Source of the DNA: Oscillospiraceae bacterium
GTDB lineage: Bacteria > Bacillota_A > Clostridia > Oscillospirales > Oscillospiraceae
Assembly (NCBI GenBank): GCA_902789835.1
Contig: CADAPN010000232.1
Span: 1 to 5,722, forward strand
Direction: 5' to 3'
DNA length: 5,722 nt
Both the position numbers and the translations under genes were made by a program. Below, piece after piece: positions 2,116-5,722 of this stretch. The notes beneath the pieces were generated by a model. That model had not been told where the DNA came from, did no database searches, and saw nothing but the letters and a program-made list of their open reading frames with translations. The first letter of the stretch is position 1, and the number at the start of each line of letters is the position of its first letter.

Positions 2116-2957
2116 ACCGAACGCAGCTCAACCGGGCTCTGACCGGAATCGACGATCGCTATCTCACCATGGTGGACCGGAAAACAGAGGAGGTCCAGAC
2201 CATGAGACAGAAGAAAATCAGAAGGAAAACATTTTTCAGAACCATCCTGATCGCGGCGGCGATCATGGCCCTGATGGGCATCACCGCCTACGCCGTCAGC
2301 AGCATCCACGCCGCCCGCCAGCAGGCGCTCCGTGCAGATCTGCAGATTGAGGAAAACCGCGTCAGCGGCTATACGGAATACGCCGAGAGCGGCCCTGACC
2401 CAGCCCCGGCCCCGAGTACGACGGCAGAGACCAAACAGGCCGAACCGAAAATCCAGTTGATTTCTTCCCTGCAGCAGGGAGACTTTCAGGCTGTTTTCTT
2501 TAGCCTCTCTCCGGTATCGGAGGAGAGGGCGAGAAGCTTTTTCTTTGACAACATGGTCACGGAATTCAGCTATATCGCATCGAATGAAGAGATCCCGGAG
2601 GACAGCTGGTACACCGCGGGAAAGACGGAAGACGGCATCGAAAAAAGCTTTGCGCACCCGGTTCCCTTTACCGAGGGGCATGAGGCGGAGCACATGGTGG
2701 AACAGAGCTCGCCCACGGGCCTCCCGGATGAAAACGGCGTGCAGCAGACCGTGACCTTTGAGGTAGTGGATCCGGACTGGTACAGGCCCCTGCTGATGGA
2801 GCACTCGTATGATCCGCAGACGCAGAGCCTGATGCTGGCGGCGATGATTTACCGGCAGACGGTGGATTTTTCCAAGCCGGTGTATCTCTCGGTCCGCTGT
2901 CTGGACGGGCCTTCGGTCTGGGCGGACATGGATATCTTGCGGATTACGGGACGGTGA
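2112..2957 (+). CDS. Single-pass membrane protein, likely anti-sigma factor; N-terminal part of a frameshifted gene
   Basis: The 281-residue product has a short cytoplasmic N-terminus (1-43) ending in the basic stretch KKIRRK, one membrane segment (about 44-62, TILIAAAIMALMGITAYAV) and a large extracytoplasmic part. A Pro/Ala/Thr-rich linker (about 94-112) leads into a folded region. The start overlaps the sigma gene stop (ATGA, 2112-2115) and has a strong AGGAGGGG site at 2096-2103, so the two are translationally coupled. By position and topology I infer that it holds the sigma factor at the membrane and responds to an outside signal. No zinc-finger or kinase motif is visible, and the family could not be named with certainty (DUF4179-like proteins are one possibility). 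The frame ends abruptly at 2957 with the tail RITGR, while sensible sequence continues in another frame, so about 145 residues of the C-terminus are probably lost through a one-base deletion near 2936-2941. Confidence 0.7.
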   Translation: MNRTQLNRALTGIDDRYLTMVDRKTEEVQTMRQKKIRRKTFFRTILIAAAIMALMGITAYAVSSIHAARQQALRADLQIEENRVSGYTEYAESGPDPAPAPSTTAETKQAEPKIQLISSLQQGDFQAVFFSLSPVSEERARSFFFDNMVTEFSYIASNEEIPEDSWYTAGKTEDGIEKSFAHPVPFTEGHEAEHMVEQSSPTGLPDENGVQQTVTFEVVDPDWYRPLLMEHSYDPQTQSLMLAAMIYRQTVDFSKPVYLSVRCLDGPSVWADMDILRITGR

Positions 2958-3388
2958 CCCTGGAAGCTTCGGACACGGTGTTTGTCTCCCCGATCCTGGC
3001 GGAAGCAATCCATCTGGTAAACCCGGAGAACGGCGGGAAACTGGAGATCCGGGACATCCGCCTCTCGGCCAACTGTGTGGAATGGAAGATCGTTCATGAC
3101 GATGCGGAGCTGATCCACAATCTGGATGCGGAATCCCCGACTTTCCATGAGGACTTTGAAAAGCAGCTGCAGTGGATCCGTTTCCAGGACGAGATCCTGT
3201 CGACGGCTTCCCTCACCTTCGCGGACGGCAGCACCATGCCGCTGAATGCCTCGCCGGCGGCACCCTATGAGGACGGCATTACAACGCTGACCTCATCCTG
3301 GAGCGGCACGATCGATATCAGCCAGGTGAAGAGCATCATCGTGATGGGGACGGAATACAGCTTCCCGGAACTGACACCGCAGGCATGA
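2954..3388 (+). pseudogene. C-terminal extracytoplasmic part of the split anti-sigma-like gene
   Basis: This 144-residue frame opens at GTG 2954 only because that is the first possible start. It has no signal peptide, membrane segment or clear ribosome binding site, and it overlaps the previous frame by GTGA. Read a few codons further upstream in the same frame it gives ADYGTVTLEASDT, which follows naturally on the WADMDIL of the upstream frame if one base is restored around the TTGCGG at 2937-2942. The joined protein would be about 425 residues. The region is rich in beta-prone stretches (KLEIRDIRLSANCVEWKIVH, SLTFADGSTMPL, GTIDISQVKSIIVMG) and looks like an immunoglobulin-like or similar beta-sandwich sensor or stalk domain. 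The alternative, a separate soluble protein made by translational coupling, is less likely. Confidence 0.6.
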
Positions 3389-3417: not shown

Positions 3418-3455
3418 TTTGAGCCCGGCTTGCAGCACTTCAAGCCGGGCTCAAA
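3418..3455. terminator. Perfect 15-bp stem hairpin after the sigma/anti-sigma unit
   Basis: TTTGAGCCCGGCTTG (3418-3432) pairs perfectly with CAAGCCGGGCTCAAA (3441-3455) around an 8-nt loop. It begins 29 nt after the anti-sigma-like frame stops. On the + strand no T run follows the stem, while on the - strand AGGTTTT follows, so it is either an atypical terminator or a stabilising 3' hairpin. Its position between two units makes termination the best guess. Confidence 0.5.
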
Positions 3456-3533: not shown

Positions 3534-3561
3534 ACTTATGCATTTGACAGCCCGCATAAGT
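3534..3561. promoter_or_regulatory. Inverted repeat enclosing the -35 box of the serine operon promoter, candidate operator
   Basis: ACTTATGC (3534-3541) and GCATAAGT (3554-3561) are perfect 8-bp inverted arms separated by 12 bp, so their centres are 20 bp apart, about two helical turns. The -35 hexamer lies in the loop and the right arm ends in the promoter spacer. A dimeric regulator bound here would block polymerase. The regulator is not encoded in the window. Confidence 0.5.
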
Positions 3562-3572
3562 TCATATATAAT
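3544..3572 (+). promoter_or_regulatory. Exact consensus sigma-A promoter of serC-serA
   Basis: TTGACA (3544-3549), a 17-bp spacer and TATAAT (3567-3572) match the sigma-70/sigma-A consensus at all twelve positions with optimal spacing. Transcription should start near 3579-3580, leaving a leader of about 35 nt before serC, too short for a T-box or riboswitch. The ribosome site is modest (GGTGAAG, 3604-3610). Confidence 0.85.
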
Positions 3573-3614: not shown

Positions 3615-4646
3615 ATGACAGAAGACAGAGTATATAATTTTTCCGCCGGTCCGTCCATCCTTCCGGAGGAGGTCCTGCAAAGGGCAAAAGCGGAGATCAT
3701 GAACTATCACGGCAGCGGCATGTCCGTCATGGAGATGAGCCACCGCAGCCCGGTGTTCTCCGAAATCTTTTCGGACACCAAGGCGAAGCTGCGCAGCCTC
3801 CTTCGCGTGCCGCAGACGCATGAGATTCTCTTCCTGCAGGGCGGAGCCACGCTGCAGTTTGCGGCGATTCCGATGAACCTGATGGAAGGTGGTACGGCGG
3901 ATTACGCCGTCACGGGGAACTTCTCCAAAAAGGCGGCCAAGGAAGCCGAGAAGTACGGGACGGTCCATATCGCCTATGACACCGGCGACACCGGGCATGA
4001 CCGGATCCCGACGCAGGAGGAGCTTCAGCTCAGCCCGGAGGCAAAGTATTTCTACTACTGCGCCAACAACACGATCTACGGGACCGAATGGCAGTATGTG
4101 CCGGAGACGAAGGCGCCGTTGGTCTGCGACATGTCCTCGGACATTCTTTCGCGCCCGGTGGAGGTCTCACGTTTCGGCCTGATTTACGCCGGCGCCCAGA
4201 AGAACATGGCCCCGGCAGGACTCACGGTCGTGATCGTGGATAAAGCCCTCGCCGGACGGGAGCTGCCCTATACCCCGCAGATCATGAGCTATGAAACCAT
4301 GATTCAGAACGACTCGCTGCTGAATACCCCGCCGTGCTGGGAATACCCCGCCGTGCTGGTGCATTTACATGCTCTCGCTGGTTCTGGACTGGCTGAAGGA
4401 GCAGGGCGGCGTGGAAGGCATGGAACAGCTCAAGCGCGAGCGGGCAAAACGCCTGTACGACTGTCTGGAAGAGAGCAGGCTTTTCCGCCTGCATGCGCAG
4501 CCCGGATCCCGCAGCGACATGAACGTCACCTTCCGCACGGGAGACGCGGAGCTGGATGCCGAATTTATCCGCTTTGCCGCGGAAAAGGGCCTCGTAAACC
4601 TGAAGGGACACAAGGTCGCCGGCGGCATGCGGGCCTCCCTGTATAA
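3615..4646 (+). pseudogene. serC: Phosphoserine aminotransferase, N-terminal two thirds, frameshifted by a 19-bp duplication
   Basis: SerC is a PLP enzyme that transfers the amino group of glutamate to 3-phosphohydroxypyruvate, giving phosphoserine in the second step of serine synthesis. Residues 1-242 are a clear SerC: YNFSAGPSILPEEVL near the start, HRSPVF (43-48), GGAT (76-79, phosphate contact), CDMSSD (171-176, with D172 the expected partner of the PLP ring nitrogen), and the PLP-binding Lys196 in YAGAQKNMAPAGL. NTPPCW (237-242) is also normal. Directly after it the frame is shifted by an exact 19-bp tandem repeat, and the next 101 residues are unrelated, Arg/Gly/Ala-rich sequence ending at the stop at 4646. 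The true C-terminus lies in another frame to 4716. With one repeat copy removed the gene encodes 360 residues, the normal length. As read, the product lacks the C-terminal domain and should be inactive. Confidence 0.9.
4322..4359. repeat. Exact 19-bp tandem duplication inside serC
   Basis: The unit GAATACCCCGCCGTGCTGG occurs twice head to tail at 4322-4340 and 4341-4359 with no mismatch. The bases flanking the pair do not extend the repeat (T before the first copy versus G at its end; G after the first copy versus T after the second). Because 19 is not a multiple of three it shifts the reading frame by one. Both copies encode NTPPCW, each in a different frame. Confidence 0.97.
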
Positions 4647-4716
4647 CGCCATGCCCATGGAGGGCGTGGACGCGCTGGTGAAGACGATAAAGGAGTTTGA
4701 ACAAAAGTATGTTTAA
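4369..4716 (+). pseudogene. serC: Phosphoserine aminotransferase, C-terminal fragment
   Basis: This frame carries the missing SerC C-terminal domain: MLSLVLDWLKEQGG, NVTFRTGDAELDAEFI, and the family signature GHKVAGGMRASLYNAMP near the end. Homology in this frame in fact begins at 4342, in the second repeat copy, where it reads NTPPCWCIY before the ATG at 4369. No ribosome site of note precedes that ATG, so independent translation is doubtful. Its stop overlaps the serA start by 8 nt. It and the upstream part are one gene broken by the duplication. Confidence 0.9.
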
Positions 4717-5722
4717 GATACAGACCATGAACAAGATCGCGGCCGCCGGGATCGAAGCTTTGGAGAAGAACGGCTGCCAGGTCGGCGAAAACATCAAGTA
4801 TCCCACAGGCCTGCTGCTGCGCAGCGCGGACCTGCACGAGATGGAATTCCCGGAGAGTCTGCTGGCGATCGCGCGGGCCGGAGCCGGGTACAACAACATT
4901 CCGGTGGACCGCTGCACGGAAGAAGGAATCGTGGTTTTCAACGCACCCGGAGCCAACGCACAGGCGGTGAAGGAGCAGGAGATCTGCTCTCTCGTGATGG
5001 CGTCCCGCGACATCCTCGGGAGTATCGCGTGGGTACAGTCCATTGCCGGGGAAGGAGATAAAATCCCCGAACTGGTCGAGAAAAAGAAGTCCTCCTTTGC
5101 AGGCCCCGAGCTGCTGGGCAAGACGCTGGGCGTCATCGGCCTGGGCGCGGTGGGCGCCTTGGTGGCAAACGTGGGCGTGGACCTGAACATGCGCGTCCTG
5201 GGCTATGACCCGTTCCTGTCAGTCGACGCGGCCTGGCGGCTTTCCCGCAAGGTCATCCACACGGAGAACCTGGAAGAGCTTTATGAAAACTGCGACTATA
5301 TCAGCATCAATGTCCCCTTCACCGACAGCACCCATCACATGCTGAACGCCGAGGCCTTTGCCAAGATGAAGGACGGCGTGCGCATCATCAACGAATCCCG
5401 GGCTGAAGTGGTGGATGACGAAGACATGACGGAAGCGCTTCGCAGCGGGAAGGTCGCAAAGTATGTGACGGACTTCCCCAATGAGACCATTCTCAAGGCG
5501 CCGAATGTGATTGCAATGCCGCATCTGGGCGCCTGCACGCCGGAGAGCGAAGACCGCTGTGCCGAGATGGCGGCCAACGAGATGTATGACTATCTGCTGA
5601 ACGGGAACATCCGCAACTCCGTGAATCTGCCGGATATCTATCTGAACCGGGCAGGGACCTGCCGCCTCTGCGTCATTCATCGGAACGTGCCCCGCATGCT
5701 GACCAGGATTCTGGATTTCATC
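4709..5722 (+). CDS. serA: D-3-phosphoglycerate dehydrogenase, C-terminus cut by the window end
   Basis: SerA oxidises 3-phosphoglycerate to 3-phosphohydroxypyruvate with NAD, the first step of serine synthesis. The 338 residues visible begin MFKIQTMNKIAAAGIEALEK, matching the start of the short clostridial form of about 390 residues. The substrate domain has RAGAGYNNIPVDRC (56-69) and NAPGANAQAVKE (78-89). The NAD fold has GVIGLGAVG (141-149) with Asp167 in GYDPF at the end of the second strand. Catalytic Arg231 (NESRAEVV), Glu259 (DFPNE) and His272 (PHLGACTPES) are all present. From about residue 318 an ACT regulatory domain begins (CRLCVIHRNVPRM) and runs off the window, with some 50 residues missing. 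The ATG overlaps the serC stop; AGGAG at 4691-4695 is 13 nt upstream, so coupling to serC translation is likely. The Gly usually following the catalytic Arg is Ala here. Confidence 0.93.
   Translation, partial: MFKIQTMNKIAAAGIEALEKNGCQVGENIKYPTGLLLRSADLHEMEFPESLLAIARAGAGYNNIPVDRCTEEGIVVFNAPGANAQAVKEQEICSLVMASRDILGSIAWVQSIAGEGDKIPELVEKKKSSFAGPELLGKTLGVIGLGAVGALVANVGVDLNMRVLGYDPFLSVDAAWRLSRKVIHTENLEELYENCDYISINVPFTDSTHHMLNAEAFAKMKDGVRIINESRAEVVDDEDMTEALRSGKVAKYVTDFPNETILKAPNVIAMPHLGACTPESEDRCAEMAANEMYDYLLNGNIRNSVNLPDIYLNRAGTCRLCVIHRNVPRMLTRILDFI

Follow-up and report, generated by a model that had tools for sequence, protein, structure and literature searches.

A frame-breaking 19-bp tandem duplication in serC of an Oscillospiraceae contig is probably the product of a faulty assembly join

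Misassemblies arising from closely related organisms are cited in the available part of PMC5610896, in which chimeric contigs were also measured per assembler. The accessible section of the review PMC13207564 describes tandem duplications, mediated by microhomology, that return to a single copy, and the corresponding portion of PMC9187656 describes an intragenic G-tract that controls bifidobacterial pili. A serC frameshift null of Escherichia coli was selected in extreme acid and led to acid and heat resistance via gadE, according to the available part of PMC9769608. Among the papers listed by the literature search, none dealt with a 19-bp duplication in serC, and the listings gave background only.

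The window, which is the whole stretch of DNA analysed (a contig of 5722 bases), was compared with relatives obtained by scanning genome contigs with the serC ORF, and 80 loci were recovered. The closest relative among these (L001) was a MAG of an Oscillospiraceae bacterium from roe deer abomasum, which aligned across the whole window with 90.8% identity over 5763 alignment columns. Another relative (L002) demonstrated 80% identity across serC-serA. The features of the window were as follows:

124-1362, M29 aminopeptidase
about 1555-2115, ECF sigma factor
2112-2957, + strand, 5' piece of an anti-sigma-like gene (281-aa ORF)
2932-2933, + strand, junction at which 40 bp present in L001 are deleted, breaking the anti-sigma-like gene; the second frame-breaking indel of the contig
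2954-3388, + strand, 3' piece of the anti-sigma-like gene (144-aa ORF)
3544-3572, + strand, consensus sigma-70 promoter upstream of serC-serA (TTGACA, 17 nt, TATAAT; 12/12 consensus)
3615-4646, + strand, 5' piece of serC with an out-of-frame tail (343-aa ORF, out of register from about residue 242, stop at 4644-4646)
4322-4340, + strand, copy 1 of the 19-bp unit, reading NTPPCW in the upstream serC frame (ATG 3615)
4341-4359, + strand, copy 2 of the 19-bp unit, reading NTPPCWCIYMLSL (NTPPCW) in the downstream serC frame; not present in L001 or L002
4369-4716, + strand, 3' piece of serC (115-aa ORF from ATG 4369, true downstream frame)
4709-5722, + strand, serA-like D-3-phosphoglycerate dehydrogenase, truncated by the contig end

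Analysis with Tandem Repeats Finder showed that positions 4322-4359 form a perfect head-to-tail tract of two 19-bp copies (period 19, 2.0 copies, 100% match) of the unit GAATACCCCGCCGTGCTGG. The chance expectation for exact two-copy period-19 tracts in the window, calculated from base composition, was about 4e-8. The tract spanned exactly 38 bases with an extension of 0 bases; there was no partial third copy, and no microhomology pair was found at the ends of the duplicated unit. The 5' piece of serC matched positions 2-243 of NCBIfam PRK05355 (3-phosphoserine transaminase, 357 positions) and the 3' piece matched positions 243-356, while the ATG of the serA-like gene overlapped the true stop codon of serC. 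An exact head-to-tail pair that puts serC out of frame, as claimed in an earlier sequence-only reading of this DNA, was thus borne out by the repeat search and the ORFs. Its prediction of a 360-residue SerC after removal of one copy was also correct, as 3615-4716 minus 19 bases gives 361 codons including the stop; the open SerC of L001 is likewise 360 residues long. Promotion of the duplication by a hairpin was considered and rejected, as the single-stranded DNA fold of 4296-4385 was unremarkable (z -1.32; 24/200 shuffles folded as well).

The related-strain comparison of serC that had been proposed with that reading showed the 19-bp unit in single copy in both L001 and L002, and the serC match of L002 covered residues 1-360 without stops. 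The alignment of the window with L001 contained six gaps. Four were intergenic (three single-base gaps and one of 2 bases); the other two comprised 19 bases in serC that are missing from L001 and 40 bases in the anti-sigma-like gene that are missing from the window. L001's genome belongs to a family of which 200 genomes were sampled, and serC was matched in 184 of these at a threshold of E 1e-30. The 16 genomes with no match at that threshold may be incomplete MAGs or real serine auxotrophs, either of which explains them equally well. None of the 150 serC matches listed from the 184 genomes contained internal stops, and 148 of them had a near-full query span, with the other 2 ending at contig edges. 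A scan for exact tandem tracts with a period of 10-150 covered 89 other loci (783 kb including the window) and showed such tracts to be rare, with nine distinct ones, the window's included. A period of at least 16 was found among the listed tracts only in a CAGT run, a tract with a 42-base period and the window's own. In none of the 89 other loci did an exact tandem tract fall within the serC match, and no variation in repeat number was seen among these relatives, L001 and L002 being single-copy.

The 40-bp frame-breaking deletion at 2933 was overlooked in the sequence-only reading. It falls downstream of the ECF sigma factor gene, and the anti-sigma-like protein is intact (438 aa) in L001 and in the homologues P0241-P0245, including the stretch that is deleted in the window; the P0241 cluster comprises 96 member sequences. 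Any serC-specific story is weakened because this second frame-breaking indel lies on the same contig. Against L001, the dN/dS of serC was 0.038 upstream of the repeat and 0.091 downstream, where the true frame was used, and that of the anti-sigma-like gene was 0.179 and 0.168 on the two sides of the deletion, while serA, M29 and sigma gave 0.020, 0.055 and 0.065, respectively. Decay has begun in neither of the broken genes, and both are under purifying selection. Since this holds on both sides of the breaks, the breaks are either very recent or unreal, and the well-preserved serC flanks from which recency had been claimed were confirmed by the two serC values. An old pseudogene was ruled out by the low omega on both sides, and an alternative product or a conserved second frame was ruled out by the single intact frame carried by the relatives.

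Residues of the anti-sigma-like protein leaned towards P0241 before the deletion (11 to 6) and towards P0243 after it (14 to 2), with a Fisher p of 0.004. The best switch point between P0241-like and P0243-like sequence was at residues 259-308, the interval that contains the deletion (permutation p 0.017, 33/35 sites, with the pair chosen post hoc). This pair was picked after the best match on each side had been seen, and 3 of the 8 pairs tested on the window gave p <0.05. Four intact relatives, used as controls with the same pair, gave p values of 0.47 to 1.0. Natural recombination would mimic a switch at the deletion. For serC, the switch between L001 and P0004 was not significant (7 to 3 before, 1 to 5 after, p 0.12), nor were those of two further pairs (p 0.62 and 0.37). 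As the two 19-bp copies are identical, the tract does not reveal two haplotypes.

Lesions in homologues were surveyed in the best 120 of 7900 SerC matches, the best 120 of 267 C-terminal fragment matches and the best 120 of 154 anti-sigma matches, so that the counts are not rates. SerC homologues were flagged for an internal gap of at least 3 residues or a poor head or tail, and anti-sigma homologues for a gap of at least 4 or a poor tail. Flags were raised for 10 of these best 120 SerC homologues (including the window itself and the distant composite P0078), for 6 of the best 120 C-terminal fragments (several of which begin with unrelated sequence) and for 2 of the best 120 anti-sigma homologues. 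The intact SerC cluster P0003 (361 aa) held 409 member sequences, while P0001, P0002, P0004, P0021 and P0097 held one each and P0008 held two. P0002 (329 aa) carries the window's shifted tail; counting back from the stop that the two share, its frame comes out 23 nt short of the single-copy one. Its first 238 residues are identical to those of P0004, which has 35 residues missing. In P0008 10 residues are missing, and in P0097 26 are missing and part of the PLP domain is gone.

P0021 has 13 residues missing and 5 extra, and the extra residues are a tandem duplication (RLFHL then RLFRL). The haplotype RLFHLHAQA occurs in P0003, P0008 and P0122, and RLFRLHAQD in P0097 and P0121; P0021 reads RLFHL-RLFRLHAQD, which is the H form followed by the R form with D. 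Judged by these residues, the duplication would join two co-existing strain haplotypes, for which a faulty join is the most plausible reading. Only the protein of P0021 is known here, and a real duplication that was later reshuffled between strains would leave the same residues. P0021 thus pairs one duplication with one deletion, as the window does, and both are similar in size to those of the window (39 nt vs 40 nt for the deletion).

From these sequence comparisons, the serC duplication is probably the result of a chimeric or faulty assembly and is most likely absent from any living genome. Short reads from mixed, closely related rumen-type Oscillospiraceae strains would have been assembled together, two stretches overlapping by 19 bases would have been set end to end and not merged, and a similar bad join upstream would have dropped 40 bases. 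The tract fits an unmerged overlap of assembled stretches, which would give exactly two copies between unrelated flanks, and 19 might correspond to k-1 for an assembler k-mer of 20. The contig may have arisen by the same route as the lesions in the sister contigs. A faulty join is favoured because two independent frame-breaking indels (+19 and -40) lie within 1.4 kb of an otherwise well-aligned contig, the genes of which are under purifying selection (omega 0.02-0.18), and because both indels are private, the unit being single-copy in L001 and L002 and the deleted stretch being present in P0241-P0245. It is also favoured because further private serC indels are seen on other contigs from this species complex, the P0021 duplication carries two strain alleles, the best haplotype switch interval in the anti-sigma-like gene, found with a pair chosen post hoc, holds the deletion, and the tract has no terminal microhomology. 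An assembly artefact, which was the last option of the sequence-only reading, is now ranked first in view of the second indel and the single copy in relatives. The likeness to chimeric contigs of strain mixtures, as far as the available part of PMC5610896 describes them, lies in private indels at near-identical haplotype joins, several per contig, in the lack of older decay and in a sister contig duplication (P0021) with two strain alleles; unlike these, the window has two identical copies, and its join is a predicted one. If the duplication is an artefact, a perfect short duplication that breaks a housekeeping gene in a strain-rich rumen metagenome would call for a check of companion indels first, and the strain alleles of both copies would be worth checking before a mutation or a switch is called.

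A genuine null, ranked second, is possible but doubtful: a private, very recent and real 19-bp duplication would knock out serC in one strain, with the habitat supplying serine and the pyridoxine branch. Serine synthesis would then halt at phosphohydroxypyruvate, and translational coupling to serA, whose start and the true serC stop overlap, may be lost. The reading frame is broken and the purifying pattern shows no older decay, so that the lesion looks both frame-breaking and fresh, as in a fresh null or pseudogene, but with the 40-bp deletion such a reading requires two unrelated fresh nulls on the same 5.7-kb contig, and serC was stop-free in 150/150 listed family matches, 148 of them near full-length. 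Loss of serC may occur in the family, given the 16 of 200 genomes without a match at E 1e-30, for which MAG incompleteness is an equally good explanation. The closest relative, L001, came from an acid stomach, the abomasum, and the E. coli serC null was selected under acid in the available account (PMC9769608), but the effect there went through gadE and would apply to these Clostridia only if they have a comparable factor. The E. coli allele and the window are alike in having a frame-breaking serC indel with the remaining gene intact; the former, as described in that portion of PMC9769608, was a 1-base deletion at Ser65 under laboratory selection, verified both by whole-genome sequencing and by reconstructing the deletion, whereas the latter is a 19-bp duplication on one unverified contig. 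A real duplication would amount to an ordinary, recently arisen auxotrophy allele, with interest mainly in serine cross-feeding.

Far behind in the ranking is a reversible switch, in which replication slippage would drop or regain one copy and turn serC off or on; this is very improbable. Tandem duplications are revertible in principle in the available section of PMC13207564, and the window resembles the microhomology-mediated class described there in being short, two-copy, frame-breaking and able in principle to revert, but its unit has no microhomology ends. Slippage switches are known from gut commensals, and in the accessible part of PMC9187656 the coding frame is set by repeat number, as it is here; there, however, a homopolymer varies in length within a population, whereas the window shows one event with two copies. 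The on/off switch offered in the sequence-only reading found no support: the unit is single-copy in L001 and L002, none of the 89 other scanned loci has an exact tandem tract within its serC match, the array holds exactly 2.0 copies, and all 150 listed serC matches are stop-free. A single-copy ancestor would also have no flanking repeat from which slippage could rebuild the duplication, a housekeeping amino-acid gene would be an unusual target for a switch, and the serC lesions of the sister contigs differ in size from that of the window. Slippage between short direct repeats yields two copies plus a remnant, and a slippage origin is disfavoured because the remnant at the window's tract is 0 bases. 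It is likewise highly unlikely that a heritable two-copy serC coexists with single-copy rumen cells and reverts measurably, with serine and pyridoxine synthesis bet-hedged and cross-fed and the P0002 and P0004 lesions as parallel losses; if it were so, those lesions would reflect the same pressure and not assembly noise. Last in the ranking, and scarcely credible, is a serC that still works, either by ribosomes bypassing 19 nt between identical codons or by a split enzyme from the two pieces. Wherever a ribosome left copy 1, the identical copy 2 would offer a matching codon to land on, and both serC pieces are conserved, but the arrangement is shared by no relative seen and the conservation is explained by recency. 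The remaining probability belongs to unlisted causes.

Some minor observations were made on the surveyed records. P0104 (a 229-aa SerC piece ending NTPPCWCI) and P0123 (a 115-aa piece starting MLSLVL) each have a longest contig of 1714 bases; perhaps both come from one contig and represent a further serC that is broken at the next tyrosine codon. P0078, a SerC record of 538 aa, repeats its N-terminal part and is apparently composite. The window, P0002, P0004 and perhaps P0104/P0123 are interrupted within codons 237-273, but a hotspot for lesions was rejected, as the list was ordered by similarity to a query that is broken there. The starts of the best 120 of 267 C-terminal fragments track Met codons (22 at 173, 14 at 198 and 18 at 246), and position 246 is not specially enriched among them.

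An RNA element was considered and rejected, as no Rfam family was found in the window at gathering score. A strong inverted repeat at 3418-3455 (18-nt arms, 94% complementary, 2 nt apart) lies between the anti-sigma-like gene and serC and is possibly a terminator. The sigma-70 promoter at 3544-3572 has its counterpart in L002, where the two hexamers and their spacing are identical to those of the window.
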